A stretch of DNA of 64,000 nt from Ancylobacter gelatini (GTDB lineage: Bacteria; Pseudomonadota; Alphaproteobacteria; Rhizobiales; Xanthobacteraceae), in the NCBI RefSeq assembly GCF_022601675.1, contig NZ_JAKVIL010000005.1, forward strand, positions 62,001 to 126,000. The letters run 5' to 3'. A program made the position numbers and the translations under genes. The stretch's first letter is position 1; the number at the start of each line of letters is the position of its first letter. This document shows positions 36,579 through 45,024 of the stretch, one piece after another. The notes under the pieces are model-generated. The model did not search any database and was not told the DNA's origin. It saw nothing but the letters and a program-made list of their open reading frames with translations.

Positions 36579-37391
36579 TCATCGCGGTGCTTCATATCGG
36601 GCTGCAAGTGCCTCCGCTTCCCAGGCGCTGAGAAGATCATACGAAGACTCAGAGACCGGGCAAAAACCTCTGAGGAGCAAGCGCTCCCGGATTGTCGCAA
36701 GCTCCGACGCCTCTTCCACGGCCAGAAAGGCCGTGCGCAGCGCCTCTATTACCTGCCGCGGGCAGGAGCGCGACGCGACAAGAAATGGGATCGGGGCCGG
36801 TGCCGTGGTCGCGACGACGCGCAGTCCGTGGGCGGGATCGTCCGGTGCGGCGCGCATGAGGTCGAACGCATAGGAATCGAGCGGGCCGGCATCGATCGCG
36901 CCGGACAGGAGCGCTGCGACCACACCGCGCGGCGTGTGCAGCGGACCGATGCTTTCCGCATAGAGCGCAGGCCGGCTCAAAGAGCGATAGCCGAGCAGAT
37001 GATGGCGCGGGGCATTGAAGCCGGACTGCGATTCCTCCAGCGTGTAGCCGATGCGATGGCCGAACGTATCCTCCAGCGTCCGAAAGGGACTGTCGGCTCG
37101 CACGACGATATCGGTCATGTAGCGCGGGGCGCCGTCATAACGCGCCGGCGCCGGCACGGGGCAGACGATCGGCGCCGGCTTCGGATCGGCCCGCAACCAG
37201 GGTCGGCCGCACATGAACGCGGCCCCCAGATCGGAGCGCGTCCAGAGCGCCGTCATCGGCAGGCTCGTGGGATGCTGGATCGTCTCCAGATCGACGCCGC
37301 TCTTCCGAGCGACCCAGGCAAAAAGCTCGGTCCATGCGGCCGAGGCATCGGCAGTTACCGCATACATGCGGGCATTGGCCACCCAGCTCAT
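36579..37391 (-). CDS. PhnD-like substrate-binding fold protein without a signal peptide
   Basis: This 270-residue protein has the two-lobe PhnD/SsuA type pattern: SDLGAAFMCGRPW, then DIVVRADSPFRTLEDTFGHRIGYT, and SGAIDAGPLDSYAFDLM. It starts directly with the mature-type fold (MSWVANARMYAV) and has no signal sequence, so it should be cytoplasmic. Its ATG overlaps the stop of the ABC ATPase gene (ATGA, 37388-37391), making it the last gene of the transporter-lyase operon. It may be a cytoplasmic ligand-binding or enzyme-like protein of the same pathway; the role is not known. Confidence 0.75.
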   Translation of the reverse strand: MSWVANARMYAVTADASAAWTELFAWVARKSGVDLETIQHPTSLPMTALWTRSDLGAAFMCGRPWLRADPKPAPIVCPVPAPARYDGAPRYMTDIVVRADSPFRTLEDTFGHRIGYTLEESQSGFNAPRHHLLGYRSLSRPALYAESIGPLHTPRGVVAALLSGAIDAGPLDSYAFDLMRAAPDDPAHGLRVVATTAPAPIPFLVASRSCPRQVIEALRTAFLAVEEASELATIRERLLLRGFCPVSESSYDLLSAWEAEALAARYEAPR

Positions 37392-38332
37392 GCCGCGGCA
37401 TCCGCTCCGTCGAGAATGGCGTCGCGGGTGACATGACCGAGGACGGCGCCGTCGGCACCGCGCACGTTCACGCTGCGCGCACCGGAGCCGATCAGGCGCG
37501 CCAGCGCTTCGCGCACCGAAGCGCCGCTGGCGATCGTCGGCGCATCCGCGACGGAACCAGGTCGCATCAGCGCATCGACGCCGCGCAGGCTCAGGCGCTT
37601 GAGCGCGCGGTCCGGGCCCACGAAGGCCTCGACGAAGGCATCCGCGGGCGCTGCGAGGATCTCGTCCGGCGTGGCGTATTGGATGAGCCGCCCCTCGCGC
37701 ATGATGGCGACGCGGTCGCCCATCTTCATCGCCTCGTCGAGATCATGCGTGACCATGACGATGGTCTTGCGCACGCGTTTGAGGATTTCCTTGAATTCGT
37801 CCTGTAGCCGCTCGCGCGCGATCGGGTCGATCGCACCGAAGGGCTCGTCCATCAACATGACCGGCGGGTCGGCGGCCAAAGCGCGCGCCACGCCGACACG
37901 CTGGCGCTGTCCGCCTGAAAGGCGATGCGGCATCACGCTTCGGAAGCGCTCCGGCTCGAGCCCGACCAGTGCCAGGAGTTCGTCGATGCGCTTCTCGATC
38001 TTCGCCCGCGACCAGCCCAGCAGGTGCGGCACCGTGCCGATGTTCTCCGCCACCGTCATGTGCGGGAACAGGCCGATCTGCTGGATGACATAGCCGATGC
38101 GGCGCCGCAGCGTCACGGGGTCGAGCCCGGTGACGTCCTGCCCCTCGATGAAGATGCGGCCCGCGCTGGGCTCGACCATGCGGTTGATCATCCGCATCGT
38201 GGTTGTCTTGCCGCAGCCCGAAGGGCCGATGAGCGCGGTCGTCGTTCCCTCCGGCATCTCGATGGTCACATCGTCCACCGAGGGCTTGCCGACGGCGCCG
38301 AAACGCTTGGTAATGCCTTCCAGTCTGATCAC
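37388..38332 (-). CDS. OpuC/ProV-type quaternary-ammonium ABC transporter ATPase with CBS-like C-terminus
   Basis: This 314-residue ATPase has GPSGCGKTT (Walker A), LSGGQRQRVGVARAL and VMLMDEPFGAIDP, with the Q-loop in YVIQQIGLFPHMT typical of the glycine betaine/choline class. The last ~65 residues are a CBS-like regulatory segment (VREALARLIGSGARSVNVRG). It energises the two permeases encoded just upstream in the operon and overlaps both neighbours by ATGA. The substrate is predicted from the linked lyase (see findings), not from this protein. Confidence 0.92.
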   Translation of the reverse strand: MIRLEGITKRFGAVGKPSVDDVTIEMPEGTTTALIGPSGCGKTTTMRMINRMVEPSAGRIFIEGQDVTGLDPVTLRRRIGYVIQQIGLFPHMTVAENIGTVPHLLGWSRAKIEKRIDELLALVGLEPERFRSVMPHRLSGGQRQRVGVARALAADPPVMLMDEPFGAIDPIARERLQDEFKEILKRVRKTIVMVTHDLDEAMKMGDRVAIMREGRLIQYATPDEILAAPADAFVEAFVGPDRALKRLSLRGVDALMRPGSVADAPTIASGASVREALARLIGSGARSVNVRGADGAVLGHVTRDAILDGADAAA

Positions 38333-38988
38333 CGCGTATCGCCTCCCTCGCGCACGTTCCTGAGCAGGCGCCGCTCCGCAAAACCGAGCAGGATCTCGAC
38401 GCCCATCGCCAGGATGGCGATCGGCACCGCGCCCGCGAGCAGGCGCTGCTGGTCCATGACCGCGATCCCCGACGTGATGAAATCTCCGAGGCCGCCGCCG
38501 CCGATGAAGGAGGCAAGTGTCGCCCCCGATATCACCTGGATGGCCGCCGTCCGCATGCCCGCGAAGATCGCCGGGGCGGCCAGCGGAATCTGGATCTTGC
38601 GCAGGATCTGACCGCGCGTCATGCCCATGCCCGCAGCCGCGTCGACGAGATCGGCATCCACTTCCCGAAGGCCGATATAGGTGTTGAGCAGGATCGGCGG
38701 CAGCGCCAGCACCACCAGCGCCACGACGGACGGCACGAGGCCAATGCCGAGCAGCGGCAGGGCTGCGGCGAGGATCGCAAGGCTTGGGATGGTGCGGAGC
38801 ATGTTGATGATATTGATGACGAATGCGGCCAGCCGCTCACTCCCCAGAACGGAGATGGCGAGCGGAATGCCGATCGCCAACCCGAGACCGAGCGACCAGA
38901 TGCTCATCTCCGCATGCTGGATCAACGCTGTCCGCATCAAGTCCCAATGGGCGGCGACCCAGGAGAAGGTTCCGGCGATCAGCGACAT
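38329..38988 (-). CDS. OpuC-type ABC transporter permease (second)
   Basis: This 219-residue inner-membrane permease has about five helices. Its EAA-type loop runs through VDADLVDAAAGMGMTRGQIL and the following RKIQIPLAAPAIFAGMR, as in OpuCB/OpuCD and YehY. It overlaps the ATPase start by four bases and follows the first permease by one base. The two permeases likely form the transmembrane heterodimer. Confidence 0.9.
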   Translation of the reverse strand: MSLIAGTFSWVAAHWDLMRTALIQHAEMSIWSLGLGLAIGIPLAISVLGSERLAAFVINIINMLRTIPSLAILAAALPLLGIGLVPSVVALVVLALPPILLNTYIGLREVDADLVDAAAGMGMTRGQILRKIQIPLAAPAIFAGMRTAAIQVISGATLASFIGGGGLGDFITSGIAVMDQQRLLAGAVPIAILAMGVEILLGFAERRLLRNVREGGDTR

Positions 38989-38989
38989 C

Positions 38990-39616
38990 TCAGCCCACCC
39001 GTCCAGGACGCAGGCGCCGCTCGAGGCGCGTCAGGGCGAAATCGGCACTGACCGCCATGGCAGAGGCGAGCAGACCGCCGGTCAGGATCTTCTCGGGATA
39101 GCGCTGGTCGATGCCGGCGAAGATGATCGTGCCGAGCCCGCCGGCATTGATATAGGCCGCGACCGTCGCGATGCCGATGACGGTGATGGTGGCGATGCGG
39201 ACACCGGAGACGATGAGCGGCATCGCCAGCGGCAATTCGATCCTCAGCAGGCGCCGCCATGGATCGTAGCCCATGCCCGTCGCCGCATCGAGCACCTCGG
39301 GCGGCACCGACCTGATGCCGAGCGCCACGTTGCGTACGAGGGCCAGCAGACAATACGACACAAGCCCGACGATCGCCGGCTTGAATCCGAGCCCGAGGAA
39401 GGGGATGAGCAGCGCGAACAGCGCCAGGCTCGGAATCACGAAGATGGCGCCGGTCAGAAAGACCACGACGGCATAGACCGCCGGCCGGCGCGCGCTGTAG
39501 ACGCCCAGAACCAGCGATATGGCCAGCGCGATCGCTACCGAGACGAGGACGAGCGTTACATGCTCCAGTAGCGCCTGGGCGATCTCGGGCAGATGTGTGG
39601 GGACCCAGCGCAGCAT
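38990..39616 (-). CDS. OpuC-type ABC transporter permease (first)
   Basis: This 208-residue permease starts with an extracytoplasmic segment and TM helix (HVTLVLVSVAIALAISLVLG) and has the EAA-like loop PPEVLDAATGMGYDPWRRLL followed by RIELPLAMPLIVSGVR. The ATG at 39616 overlaps the lyase stop (TGATG) with GAGGAG upstream, so translation is coupled to the lyase. This direct coupling of an ammonia-lyase-type enzyme to a betaine-type importer is the main functional clue for the operon. Confidence 0.9.
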   Translation of the reverse strand: MLRWVPTHLPEIAQALLEHVTLVLVSVAIALAISLVLGVYSARRPAVYAVVVFLTGAIFVIPSLALFALLIPFLGLGFKPAIVGLVSYCLLALVRNVALGIRSVPPEVLDAATGMGYDPWRRLLRIELPLAMPLIVSGVRIATITVIGIATVAAYINAGGLGTIIFAGIDQRYPEKILTGGLLASAMAVSADFALTRLERRLRPGRVG

Positions 39617-41145
39617 CACGTCGTCTCCTCGCCGATCCCGTCAAGGACATCAAACACACCGGCCGCGATCATCGCGTCCAGCGCTTCGATATCGGGCGTC
39701 GCAGGCCTGTCCTCGGTCAGCATCGCGACAGCGCTCCGCACGGCGGCCTGAATGCCGGCCGTGCCACGGCCGAGTGCGATGCCATCCCGAAGATCGACGG
39801 CCTGAGCGGCGACCATCAGTTCCACGGCGATCAGCAGCCGCAGCCGGGCGACGATATCGGCGGTCTTCTCCACCACCGCCGTCGCCATGGTGGCATAGTC
39901 CTCGACGCGGTCGGCGACGGGCAGGATGAAAACGGGCATCGGATTGGCCCGGTGCTGGATCTCCGCGACCAGCGCCGCGACCGTCTTCTGCACCGTGGCA
40001 TAACCGTTGCTGCCGTTCTGGATCGGGCTGAGAAAGCGCGGAAGATCGCTGGAGGCCGGCGACATCAGTTTCATGACCCTCTCGCCGACCATGGCCGCGA
40101 CCCGGGCGAGGGCAAGGCCAAGCATCTCGAGGACGAGGGTCAGATGGGTGGTGTCGAAATTGGCGTTCGGCAGGGAGCGCCCCTCGGCGAAGATCGCCGG
40201 GTTGTCGTCGCTGCTGTTGATCTCGGCCTCGACGATATCGCGGGCGGAATCCAGCGCGGCAACCGCCGCCCCCATGACGGGCGCTATGCAGCGGAAACTC
40301 AACGGATCCTGCAGGCGGCGGGCCGCGCCTGGCTGGATGAGGGCGCCGCCCTCGAACAGGGCGCGCATTGCGGCCGCCACCACCCCCTGGCCCTGCAGGG
40401 GCCGCAGAGCCAGCGCGGCTTCCGACAGCGGATCCAGCGAGCAGCGATAGGCTTCGAAGGAGAGGGCGCCGGCCGCGACAGCGGCCGAAAGCACCCGCCG
40501 TGCATCGGCGACGCAGAGCACCGCAAGACCGACCGACGCGGCATTGGAGGACACCAGCGCGAGGCCGTCCTTGCCGACGAGACGGAGGGGGGACAGACCC
40601 GCGCGTTCCAGAGCTAGGGCCCCCGGTACGATTTCCCCTTCCATGGACGCGAAACCCCGCCCGATCAGGACAGCTGCGATCGCCGCCAGCGGCGCGAGGT
40701 CACCTTCCCCGATCGAGCCCGTCATCGGTACGACCGGTTGCACGTCGCGTTCGATCAGCCCGGCAAGACCGTGCGCTGTCGCGAGACTCGCGCCGGAATA
40801 GCCCCGGGCGAGCCGGGCGGCCCGCGTCGTCATGATGGCGCGTACCTCCCGGCGCGAACCGGCCCGGCCGACGCCGACGCAACGCGCCAATGGCACGCGC
40901 ATCTGCACGTCGTCATCCGCCCGCAACGCCGTATCGACGGCGGCGCCTAGCCCGGTCGTAACGCCGTAGATGCGTTCGCCCGCGGCGCTGAGCAGGGCAA
41001 GCGCGCTTGCCGAGGCCTCGATACCGGCCTCAGTTGCTTTGGAGAACGCGATAGTGCGCTGACCATCGGCAACGGCGACGATATCGCCGATGGTGAGGCG
41101 GGCTATCCCGAGCGTGACGATGGGCTTCATGGCGACGGTCCGCAT
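39616..41145 (-). CDS. Aromatic amino acid lyase-fold enzyme lacking the MIO triad; candidate ergothionase
   Basis: This 509-residue protein has the histidine/phenylalanine ammonia-lyase fold: YGVTTGLG (catalytic Tyr loop), QDPLSFRCIAPVMG, EAEINSSDDNPAIF and MPVADR-like C-terminal motifs (ILPVADRVEDY). The loop that normally reads GSVGASGDLAPLA reads GSIGEGDLAPLA: the Ala-Ser-Gly that forms the MIO cofactor is replaced by a shorter Glu-Gly. The usual NGT motif is SSN. It cannot work like HutH. Ergothionase, which eliminates trimethylamine from ergothioneine, is a known MIO-independent member of this superfamily. Linkage to an OpuC-type importer supports ergothioneine or a related trimethylammonium substrate. 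An internal ATG at 41130 is a possible start. Confidence 0.82.
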   Translation of the reverse strand: MRTVAMKPIVTLGIARLTIGDIVAVADGQRTIAFSKATEAGIEASASALALLSAAGERIYGVTTGLGAAVDTALRADDDVQMRVPLARCVGVGRAGSRREVRAIMTTRAARLARGYSGASLATAHGLAGLIERDVQPVVPMTGSIGEGDLAPLAAIAAVLIGRGFASMEGEIVPGALALERAGLSPLRLVGKDGLALVSSNAASVGLAVLCVADARRVLSAAVAAGALSFEAYRCSLDPLSEAALALRPLQGQGVVAAAMRALFEGGALIQPGAARRLQDPLSFRCIAPVMGAAVAALDSARDIVEAEINSSDDNPAIFAEGRSLPNANFDTTHLTLVLEMLGLALARVAAMVGERVMKLMSPASSDLPRFLSPIQNGSNGYATVQKTVAALVAEIQHRANPMPVFILPVADRVEDYATMATAVVEKTADIVARLRLLIAVELMVAAQAVDLRDGIALGRGTAGIQAAVRSAVAMLTEDRPATPDIEALDAMIAAGVFDVLDGIGEETT

Positions 41146-41158
41146 GACGCTCTGGTGC

Positions 41159-42040
41159 TTACTTGATCACGCCCTTTTCCTTAAGAAACGCCATGGCGAC
41201 GTCCTTCGGCTCCTCGCGGTCCTTTTCGACGCGCGCGTTGAGCTGGCGCATCGTGTCGTTGTCCAGCAGCGGGGAGAGCGCGTCGAGCGTTGCGGCGATC
41301 TTCGGATTGGCCGCAAGCGTATCCTGCCTGATGACGGGCGCGACGTAGTAGGGCGGGAACAGGTGCTTGTCGTCCTCGAGAGCGACCAGATTGCCGTCGG
41401 CGATCTGCCAATCGGTCGCGAAGCCGTTCGCCACGTCGATCTGCTCGGCGGCGAGCGCATCATAGCGCAGACCAAGCTTGGCGAATTGCTTGAACTCCTT
41501 GAACACCGCACCATAGGTGGCCTTGAGGCCGGGCAGCCCATCCGCCCGATCGCTGAACTCGGGCCCGGCGCCCAGGACCAGCGTGGGAGCGGCCTTGCCG
41601 AGGTCGCTCAGCGTCTTGAGGTTATGAGCCGCCGCCGTTTCCGGCCGGACCAGCAGAGCGTAGCCGTTATTGATCGCATCAGGCTTCAGCCATGTGACCT
41701 TGAAGTTACTCTCATAGAAGTCCTTGACCTCCTTGTAGACGGCATCCGGATCGCTCTGGACCTTGCCCTTCACGACAGAGATCAGCGCGGTGCCGGTATA
41801 TTCCGGGTAGAGGTCGATCTCGCCAGTGGTCAGCGCCTGATGGGCGATGAGCGTTCCACCGAGATTGATCTTTCGCACCACCTTGAGGCCGGCATTCTCA
41901 AGCGCTGCCGCGTAGATTTCGGCGAGCACATATTGTTCGGTGAAGTTCTTGCTGCCGACCTTGACCGTCTGCGCAACAGCCGGGCTGGCGAGACCAGCGA
42001 GAACAACGGCGCCGGCCAGCGCCTTGAAAACCTTGAACAT
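41159..42040 (-). CDS. OpuCC/OsmX-type periplasmic substrate-binding protein
   Basis: This 293-residue exported protein has signal peptide KALAGAVVLAGLASPAVAQ and the family pattern VGSKNFTEQYVLAEIYA near the N-terminus, then GEIDLYPEYTGTAL. The Tyr- and Trp-containing loops resemble quaternary-ammonium binding proteins of the OpuC/YehZ/EgtU group. Ergothioneine importers known from other bacteria (EgtUV) use this same binding-protein class, fused there to the permease. The ATG at 42040 has GAGGGG upstream. It precedes the lyase gene by 13 nt. Confidence 0.9.
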   Translation of the reverse strand: MFKVFKALAGAVVLAGLASPAVAQTVKVGSKNFTEQYVLAEIYAAALENAGLKVVRKINLGGTLIAHQALTTGEIDLYPEYTGTALISVVKGKVQSDPDAVYKEVKDFYESNFKVTWLKPDAINNGYALLVRPETAAAHNLKTLSDLGKAAPTLVLGAGPEFSDRADGLPGLKATYGAVFKEFKQFAKLGLRYDALAAEQIDVANGFATDWQIADGNLVALEDDKHLFPPYYVAPVIRQDTLAANPKIAATLDALSPLLDNDTMRQLNARVEKDREEPKDVAMAFLKEKGVIK

Positions 42041-42087
42041 GGTTGTACCCCTCTGGTTTTTGGATTCGTAGGGTTGACGGTATTCGC

Positions 42088-43092
42088 TCAGGCGTATCTC
42101 AGGCGTTGTCCGATGTTCAGCGCCCTTGCCTTCTCCAGCATGGCGTGCCCCAACGCGATGTCCGACGATGACAGGCCGCGATGCCAGAACAGGTTTGTTT
42201 CATTGTCATCGGTGCGTCCGGGCTTCAGCCCGGCGACGATCTGCCCGAGTTCGGCGTGGAGCGTCTCCAATGTCACCTTGCCCTCGTCGACATGTCGGCG
42301 AAGCGCGCCGAAGGGGCGGCCCGGTTGGCACTGTCCCCAGTCGTCGACGACAACCTTATCCATGATGTCTGTGAGATCGATCTCCAGTGCGCTCATCGTG
42401 CCGTAAGGAACCACGAAGGCCCCCTTCTTCACCCAGCTGGTCTTGAACAGCGGCGTCGGTTCGGGCAGGCGGCTCGCCTCCACCATGATGTCGGCGCCCT
42501 TTAGGCAATCTTCCCAGTTGTCCGTCACGATGATCTTCTTGCCGAGGTCCTGTTCCAGCCGTGCGGCAAAGGCTTCGCGGCTCTCGGGGCGGCGCGAATG
42601 GACACGGATCTCGTCGAAGTCGAACAGATGATCCAGCAGCCGCACGTTCCAGTAAGACGTGCCGCGTGCGCCGACATGGCCCAGGATTTTGCTGTCCTTG
42701 CGCGCCAGATGCTTGGCGCCGAGCGCGGTGACCGCGCCGGTGCGCATGTCCGTGATCGCCGTCGCGTCGATGATGGCCTGTGGCATGCCGGTCCGCGGGT
42801 TGAACAGGTTCAACACCGCCATTTCGGAGGGTAGGCCCACCTTGTAGTTGTCGACGAAATCACCGACCACCTTCACGCCGGCGCAGTCGAGTGGCTTCAC
42901 ATAGCCGCGCAGGACGTTGAAATGGCCCTTGTCGGAGCTCTCGGGAACCAGGTGAACCCTGGGTTCGATCACCGTTTCGCCTCGCCCTTGGGCGGCCAGC
43001 GCACCGGACACGGCGTCAAGGATCTCGTCGTTGGTCAGTTCCAATGCCTTGGTATCCAGGGCATTGATGTAGTCGATCCAGATTTCCTGCAT
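42088..43092 (-). CDS. Ornithine cyclodeaminase/mu-crystallin family protein
   Basis: This 334-residue Rossmann-fold protein has the family N-terminal substrate lid (EPRVHLVPESSDKGHFNVLRG in part) and VKVVGDF. It also has the DATAITDMRTGAVTALGAKHL helix, then a dinucleotide fold GHVGARGTS. The classic ornithine cyclodeaminase catalytic Asp region is not clearly kept. Relatives include alanine dehydrogenase, ketimine reductase and opine-type enzymes, so the reaction is open. The ATG at 43092 has AGGAAGA upstream, and it is the first gene of the seven-gene minus-strand operon, 47 nt before the binding protein. Confidence 0.82.
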   Translation of the reverse strand: MQEIWIDYINALDTKALELTNDEILDAVSGALAAQGRGETVIEPRVHLVPESSDKGHFNVLRGYVKPLDCAGVKVVGDFVDNYKVGLPSEMAVLNLFNPRTGMPQAIIDATAITDMRTGAVTALGAKHLARKDSKILGHVGARGTSYWNVRLLDHLFDFDEIRVHSRRPESREAFAARLEQDLGKKIIVTDNWEDCLKGADIMVEASRLPEPTPLFKTSWVKKGAFVVPYGTMSALEIDLTDIMDKVVVDDWGQCQPGRPFGALRRHVDEGKVTLETLHAELGQIVAGLKPGRTDDNETNLFWHRGLSSSDIALGHAMLEKARALNIGQRLRYA

Positions 43093-43833: not shown

Positions 43834-45024
43834 ATGGATACCTCGACCCTTCTGATCGTCCATCGGGTGATGAGCGAACGGAGCATCCGGGGCACGGCCC
43901 GGGTAATGAGGAAGCCGGTTTCAAGTATTGCCGCCGCGATCGATCGACTGGAAAGCCAGATCTCTGTGCCACTTGTGCAGAAAGCTGGGACGAGCGTTGT
44001 CCTGACCCTTGAGGCCGAGAGACTTTCTCCTGTCATCAAGCAGCTCGCCGAGCATGTCCAGGATATCATGGCCATCGGCAACCGTAGCAGGCAGGACGTC
44101 TCGCTGAGCCTCAGCGCTTTAGCCCGCCTTGCACATGTCGCCGAAACCGGCAGCATCCGCGGGGCAGCCAAGTCGCTCGGGTTGGGCCAACCCCAGCTTG
44201 CCCGCCAGATCGCACATGTTGAAGCGACGCTCGGCTGTCGCCTGTTCAATCGCCGGGTGGATGGCTCGACGACGACAGAGGCGGGAAAGCGGCTGGTAAG
44301 GTCGACCCGTGCCATCGAGGCGATCTGGAACGAACTGGCTCATGCGGCGGCCGGCCGCTCCCGCCGAAGTGCCGCGACCATCCGGCTCGGCTCGATCAGT
44401 CCAATAGGCCATGACAGCTTTGTTGCCACGCTGCTCGCCTCGCTCGTCGCGGCCTGGATGAACGACAAGCCCCGCCAACCCCTGTTGGTGGCCAATACGA
44501 CCACCGAAGGACTCATCGCCGGCCTGAAGAGCGGCACCTACGATGCGGTGCTCCTGAACAGCGTCACCGTCCCAAGGGATTTCGACGGTTATCTGATCGC
44601 ACGATCGCCGTTGTCGCTTGTCGGTCAGTCGCACGTTATCAAACCGGGCGAAGGGCGGGATGCCTTGGCCAGGATCGTGCTTGGCTCTCCTATCGCCGTC
44701 CCAAGCCCGAGGAGTGGGCTACGTCAGATCATCAATCGCCTGCTGGCGGATACGCTCACGGAGGGCGAGATGGACAGGCTGAAGGTGATCGAGCTCGATT
44801 CGATGCCCGTCGTCCTCAATCTGGTCCTGCACCACGGTGCCGTTTCGGTGCTGCCGTCGGAATCGGTAGCCCGGATGAGCAGCGACCTGCGCCAGATCCC
44901 ACTGCCCTCAGAACTAGCCCTGCCATATTGGCTTGTCTGCCGGAAGAATGAGAGCGGACGCCAGACCGCCAACGCCCTGCTGACCGTGCTTGCGGGTTTG
45001 GGTTATGGCGACGACGCGACGTAG
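43834..45024 (+). CDS. LysR-type regulator with two tandem N-terminal winged HTH domains
   Basis: This 396-residue protein has two LysR-type HTH units in a row. Residues ~1-80 contain HRVMSERSIRGTARVMRKPV and the helix AAIDRLESQISVPLVQ. Residues ~90-170 contain LAHVAETGSIRGAAKSLGLG, then QIAHVEATLGCRLFNRR. The co-inducer domain follows (TIRLGSISPIGHDSF onward). Standard LysR proteins are ~300 residues with one HTH. It is divergent from the transporter-lyase operon and is its likely regulator. The first HTH is more diverged, and either could be the DNA-contacting one. Confidence 0.85.
   Translation: MDTSTLLIVHRVMSERSIRGTARVMRKPVSSIAAAIDRLESQISVPLVQKAGTSVVLTLEAERLSPVIKQLAEHVQDIMAIGNRSRQDVSLSLSALARLAHVAETGSIRGAAKSLGLGQPQLARQIAHVEATLGCRLFNRRVDGSTTTEAGKRLVRSTRAIEAIWNELAHAAAGRSRRSAATIRLGSISPIGHDSFVATLLASLVAAWMNDKPRQPLLVANTTTEGLIAGLKSGTYDAVLLNSVTVPRDFDGYLIARSPLSLVGQSHVIKPGEGRDALARIVLGSPIAVPSPRSGLRQIINRLLADTLTEGEMDRLKVIELDSMPVVLNLVLHHGAVSVLPSESVARMSSDLRQIPLPSELALPYWLVCRKNESGRQTANALLTVLAGLGYGDDAT

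Follow-up and report, generated by a model that had tools for sequence, protein, structure and literature searches.

Within the 64,000-nucleotide stretch of Ancylobacter gelatini DNA analysed here (contig NZ_JAKVIL010000005.1, positions 62,001 to 126,000; hereafter the window), seven genes on the minus strand (36579–43092, from open reading frame positions) combine an OpuC-class importer with an aromatic ammonia-lyase homologue that lacks the residue triad forming the 4-methylidene-imidazol-5-one (MIO) cofactor. Judged from sequence, this cluster probably behaves as a betaine importer coupled to a trimethylamine-lyase, related to but distinct from the ergothioneine-degrading system. The genes form an operon, confirming the single strand and tight spacing reported in a preliminary description of this DNA, with intergenic gaps of 47, 13, −4, 1, −4 and −4 nt in the order of transcription and the Pfam names OCD_Mu_crystall, OpuAC, Lyase_aromatic, BPD_transp_1 (twice), ABC_tran and Phosphonate-bd. 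The source genome measures 4.3 Mb, with a completeness rating of 99.83%. The operon and its divergent neighbour comprise:

42088..43092, minus strand: OCD/mu-crystallin-family enzyme of 334 amino acids (PF02423, 177 bits)
41159..42040, minus strand: OpuAC-type periplasmic binding protein with a signal-like N-terminus (PF04069, 235 bits)
39616..41145, minus strand: MIO-less aromatic ammonia-lyase homologue (PF00221, 419 bits)
38990..39619, minus strand: OpuC-type permease 1 (PF00528), overlapping the lyase gene by 4 nt
38329..38988, minus strand: OpuC-type permease 2 (PF00528)
37388..38332, minus strand: OpuC/ProV-type ATPase (TIGR01186, 322 bits, slightly below the cut-off of 327)
36579..37391, minus strand: PhnD-like protein, no signal peptide evident (PF12974, 99 bits)
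43834..45024, plus strand: LysR-type regulator, divergent and upstream of the operon (PF00126 in two stretches, and PF03466)

The best structural matches of the lyase are 7tqr (238 bits), a "probable histidine ammonia-lyase" that we take to come from a Thermoplasma-type organism, the Treponema denticola ergothionase 6s7j (236 bits) and then HutH (213 bits). The MIO triad is missing, with SIGEGDL standing where SVGASGDL/ASGDL is expected, in a shorter GEGD loop like that of T. denticola. The lyase and the T. denticola enzyme further share Tyr60, Glu147, the S-x-N triplet, Leu282, Arg285, Lys387 (aligned with T. denticola Lys383) and Glu415, and the LQDPLSFRC segment and QKT motif also resemble this ergothionase, which bears out the earlier view of a MIO-less, ergothionase-like protein. 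Lys383 is a catalytic residue of the T. denticola ergothionase. The Lyase_aromatic fold family, the absence of the triad, S-x-N, LQDPLSFR and a Glu415 equivalent are likewise common to the ergothionases of Burkholderia and Paracoccus. HutH has the same fold family and the catalytic-site positions Tyr60, Arg285 and Glu415, but the operon lyase is without the ASG of the triad and scores 352–365 bits against HutH models with cut-offs of 524–539. An ordinary HutH was rejected for these reasons, and the hut operon of this genome encodes a MIO-type HutH besides.

In the alignment with T. denticola that had been proposed as a check, the residues agree at Tyr60, Lys387 and Glu415 and differ at position 88, where the lyase has Arg at the site of HutH His83 and the T. 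denticola ergothionase has His. Among the best 120 of 769 homologues, all 120 have Arg here, and Bosea is among the sources of the close relatives. A 39-row tree resolved three groups: ergothionases (6 rows, support 100/100), HutH (7 rows, 100/100) and a clade that we call R-type (26 rows, 98/95). The operon lyase falls in the R-type clade, outside the one holding T. denticola and the lyases of ert clusters; the tree was rooted at its midpoint and does not fix the order of MIO loss. Position 88 is Arg in 26/26 R-type rows and His in the remaining 13 (the 6 of the ergothionase clade and HutH), giving a ring-pocket pair of A/G/P/S-R in R-type lyases versus S-H in HutH and T. denticola ergothionase. 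We take His89 of the R. sphaeroides tyrosine ammonia-lyase (TAL) to be in exact register with position 88, the alignment containing no TAL. Residues hereabouts set ring selectivity in that enzyme, according to two reports (PMC9002059, PMC8773403). The tree and the model scores place the lyase outside both the ergothionase and HutH families, and it is not an ergothionase either by descent, given its separate clade, or by gene neighbourhood.

A further class of MIO-less lyases was encountered, in which GSVGYL replaces GSVGASGDL, the ring pair is S-H and Lys387 is absent (L057:5955-7514, L027:17680-19224, L056:541-2091 and L064:574-2124). GSVGYL is kept in 118 of the best-listed 120 homologues of this class, whose members are annotated as histidine ammonia-lyase. 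The Salinicola member stands between HutU, a BCCT gene of the betaine type and HutI, with HutF also present, and lyases of this class are candidate hercynine lyases.

The neighbourhoods of His-type MIO-less lyases were used as controls. In Burkholderia arboris such a lyase adjoins thiourocanate hydratase (1050 bits, cut-off 930) and thiohydantoin desulfurase (608 bits, cut-off 440), and in Paracoccus denitrificans it adjoins thiourocanate hydratase (1046 bits, same cut-off) and ErtE (594 bits, cut-off 520). The preliminary description had seen no thiourocanate hydratase at the A. gelatini locus, and this extends to the whole genome, where neither hydratase nor desulfurase exceeds its cut-off: the best hydratase match is the organism's own HutU at 691 bits, and the desulfurase search reached 26 bits. 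The known Ert route was rejected for this genome on these scores. A scan of eight lyases against NCBIfam, control lyases included, returned no ergothionase model for any of them and so has no bearing on this family name. By eye, extended N-termini resembling signal peptides are seen on the His-type MIO-less lyases of Paracoccus, Sinorhizobium and Burkholderia (L085:7893-9581, L086:7866-9506 and L087), so the ergothionase of these genera may be exported.

Like the OpuC and AfProX importers, the operon encodes a binding protein, two permeases and an ATPase; unlike them, its importer is coupled to a catabolic lyase and an OCD-family enzyme. The binding protein keeps the quaternary-amine cage, in agreement with the OpuC-class assignment made earlier, and has the SK-x-F motif of AfProX. 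Ligand positions of the ergothioneine-binding EgtU, a protein of the same class, were placed by residue spacing anchored on the AfProX alignment, EgtU itself not being aligned. By this spacing, seven of ten positions are identical (Lys242, Thr296, Asn339, Tyr341, Glu375, Arg379 and Tyr443), and three differ: Phe293 is replaced by Tyr81, Tyr419 by Phe207 and Gly244 by Phe33. Phe33 is present in 34/34 aligned binding-protein rows; the rows of L056 and L064 that have no cage belong to the second transporter of those loci. According to the EgtU study, Gly244 is invariant and its change to Phe cuts affinity about 100-fold, Tyr419Phe lowers affinity about 10-fold, and the binding domain is fused to the permease (PMC9732360). 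The operon, unlike EgtU, encodes binding protein and permeases in separate genes. By these differences the binding protein is placed outside the EgtU family. Since the cage positions are kept but Phe33 stands at Gly244 and Phe207 at Tyr419, the predicted ligand is likely a quaternary amine, and ergothioneine is possible but not indicated.

Lyase loci were surveyed in other genomes, and the counts that follow refer to the best 80 of the 202 loci found. An OCD relative of at least 68% identity is present in 75/80, lying on the lyase strand in 74 of these 75 at a median gap of 143 nt, and its conservation (68–97% identity) compares with 46–90% for the lyase itself. Of the five loci without it, three have the lyase near a contig end (L004, L052 and L069), and two (L015 and L079) have no OCD gene in the DNA examined. 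A PhnD relative occurs in 47/80 and the binding protein in 31/80; all six gene types are found together in 23/80, in several gene orders. With the OCD gene in 75/80, this association exceeds chance. The preliminary description had left the OCD-like and PhnD-like proteins without a role: the OCD-like enzyme proves to be the steadiest partner of the lyase. In literature consisting mostly of papers outside subscription, we found no account of the lyase–OCD pair.

The OCD-like protein shares its Pfam family with the alanine dehydrogenases and ketimine reductases of the OCD/mu-crystallin group, and among solved structures A. fulgidus alanine dehydrogenase (1omo) comes closest, aligning from end to end. 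It falls below the cut-offs of all 13 NCBIfam models listed (equivalog or subfamily) and is therefore not assigned to ornithine cyclodeaminase; this suggests a distinct, tightly conserved family, which may catalyse a redox reaction of the betaine or of the compound made from it. In the PhnD-like protein, Cys61, Ser121, Ser123 and Arg129 are invariant among 22 aligned relatives, and the score against the PhnD equivalog model is 34.7 bits versus 261. Its N-terminus begins, by eye, within the mature fold, with no export signal. A role like that of the desulfinase DszB, whose fold it presumably shares, was considered and rejected, as the sequence search against solved structures returned AioX and ArrX as nearest, with phosphite binders also found; AioX has a Cys aligned with the conserved one, which therefore does not prove catalysis. 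OCD–PhnD pairs of different groups repeatedly have a fatty-acid-desaturase-like gene as neighbour (L019:564-1535, L094:9344-10300, L130 and L132), and a corrinoid protein below its model cut-off lies near one such pair (L094:10458-11153). MttB-like methyltransferases, also below the model cut-off, adjoin the lyase in two relatives (L129:80-1609 and L130:969-2612).

Several clusters connect these genes with histidine catabolism. A stretch of Paracoccus saliphilus carries HutC, the PhnD-like protein, OCD, YeiH, a HutC-like regulator, HutF, HutI, HutH, HutG, HutU and a His-type MIO-less lyase, and a Comamonadaceae plasmid carries HutC, a MIO-type HutH, HutU, OCD, the PhnD-like protein, HutD, HutI, HutF and HutG, with no MIO-less lyase nearby; HutU of both clusters is canonical and not a thiourocanate hydratase. 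Chelativorans, Salinicola and Brenneria likewise have hut genes near their R-type lyases. Across 297 genomes of the order, the OCD gene was found in 20. A HutU match is present in 20/20 of these versus 155/297 overall (Fisher p 1.4e-6, kinship ignored), the match in one genome (G039) being weaker and at a paralogue-like level (5e-207). Trimethylamine monooxygenase (Tmm) exceeds its cut-off in 12/20 versus 57/297 (Fisher p 3.2e-5, kinship likewise ignored). G077, the only congener in the sample, gave no match for OCD, Tmm or HutU. The A. gelatini genome has HutF, HutI, HutH, HutG, HutU and HutD grouped together, and encodes Tmm (803 bits, cut-off 675) with the trimethylamine N-oxide demethylase Tdm directly downstream (1264 bits, cut-off 1100). 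Demethylation by MttB was rejected for this genome, which has no MttB match.

We favour a reading, in our judgement an even call, in which a histidine-family betaine is imported, loses trimethylamine without MIO and passes through an additional OCD step into the hut pathway. The OpuC-class ABC importer would take up a quaternary-ammonium alpha-amino acid, most likely a histidine-derived betaine with an altered ring; the near-constancy of the OCD enzyme points to a substrate that carries more than plain histidine betaine does. The MIO-free lyase would directly eliminate trimethylamine, a good leaving group, to give a urocanate-like alpha,beta-unsaturated acid. Possibly as the next step, the same skeleton would be altered further by the OCD-family enzyme, acting in many relatives alongside the PhnD-like protein, so that the product could enter hut. 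The trimethylamine would be oxidised by Tmm and Tdm, whose genes lie at another site in the genome. The import and breakdown of a trimethylammonium, histidine-like betaine, as first proposed, is thus retained as the favoured reading on the strength of the MIO-less lyase, the cage and the host Tmm and Tdm; the part that named ergothioneine and its known route is not.

A number of observations weigh against the favoured reading. Both its ligand and its activity are predictions, and the Fisher tests on HutU and Tmm take no account of kinship. Within the R-type clade, Arg replaces Lys387 in 16/78 rows, and Glu147 is variable, being Ala in many. The 15 OCD regions from the order (which has 19 OCD-positive genomes besides A. 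gelatini) include ten with a MIO-less lyase, one of which (L134) also carries HutH, and five without any lyase. In the Comamonadaceae and Rhodococcus clusters the sole lyase near OCD is a MIO-type HutH, so that OCD is not bound to one lyase; the Rhodococcus case is weak, as its OCD match spans residues 69–333 only and adjoins an insertion-sequence gene. In Rhizobium clusters, genes for a CoA-transferase, a short-chain dehydrogenase/reductase (SDR) and MaoC lie between YeiH and a HutC-type repressor with the lyase, an arrangement that suits beta-oxidation of an aryl-acrylate and not urocanate. Pseudomonas clusters hold a TonB receptor, FecI/FecR-like and desaturase-like genes and a more distant OpuAC protein, whose cage residues differ from those of the window's binding protein.

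The boldest version of the histidine-family reading, which we consider rather unlikely, is a second route, joined to hut, for ergothioneine or some other histidine betaine that bears sulfur. Here Arg88 would hold the C2 sulfur, the OCD and PhnD-like proteins would remove it in place of thiourocanate hydratase and thiohydantoin desulfurase, the resulting urocanate would enter hut, and YeiH-type exporters would export sulfite. Arg88 together with the conserved Glu415 would suit a ring with both acceptor and NH groups, OCD and PhnD-like genes do lie inside hut clusters, and a YeiH-type "sulfate exporter" gene is found in 14/80 lyase loci and in Polaromonas and Paracoccus clusters. However, sulfite transport by YeiH is putative, Phe33 speaks against such a ligand, and we know of no desulfurising chemistry in the OCD or PhnD-like families.

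A non-imidazole aromatic betaine, such as tryptophan betaine (hypaphorine), with the acrylate degraded by beta-oxidation, is a rather doubtful alternative. It would account for the ring-pocket pair unlike the S-H of HutH and T. denticola ergothionase, and it fits the CoA-transferase, SDR and MaoC genes (17, 20 and 16 of the 80 loci, respectively) and the legume association of many hosts. Against it stand a HutC-type repressor adjoining the lyase in 19/80 loci, Rhizobium included, the hut genes adjoining some clusters, the HutU match in every OCD-positive genome of the order and the retention of Glu415, a position at which HutH likewise has Glu.

That the lyase is an ordinary ergothionase, with the rest of the Ert route elsewhere in the genome, is improbable. 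The common ergothionase signature and an importer class that includes EgtU, with most of its ligand positions identical, would be explained, but the separate clade, Arg in place of His, the costly Phe at the Gly244 position and the sub-threshold hydratase and desulfurase scores in a nearly complete genome all point elsewhere. Still less probable is that the operon acts on plain hercynine (histidine betaine) and yields urocanate plus trimethylamine: no reading connects the betaine importer, the MIO-less lyase, hut and Tmm/Tdm more simply, but it leaves the near-constant OCD gene without a role and the His kept in HutH replaced by Arg, and the GSVGYL class with its S-H pair, found in Salinicola beside HutU, HutI, HutF and BCCT genes, is the better candidate. 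The least probable reading, in which an opine- or metallophore-like histidine conjugate loses a group other than trimethylamine and OCD cleaves the released secondary amine, draws on the TonB receptor with FecI/FecR-like genes in 15/80 loci (the Pseudomonas clusters) and on SbnB, an OCD-family enzyme that cleaves such a conjugate, but is opposed by the cage, the Tmm enrichment, the MttB-like neighbours and the good leaving group that a MIO-less enzyme would presumably need.

The divergent LysR-type protein (43834–45024) is likely the regulator of the operon. Its two HTH_1 stretches suggest a duplicated DNA-binding domain. Next to the LysR gene lies a minus-strand cytochrome P450 gene (45666–46934), with no link to the operon seen.

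The R-type clade thus represents uncharacterised, cofactor-free relatives of the ammonia-lyases, marked by a distinctive pocket signature and by a partner enzyme that accompanies almost all of them; in the records seen, most carry the label histidine ammonia-lyase. Should they split histidine-type betaines with release of trimethylamine, bacteria would contain a mislabelled source of this amine, and a route from plant and fungal betaines into histidine catabolism would become testable in rhizobia, Pseudomonas and enterobacteria.

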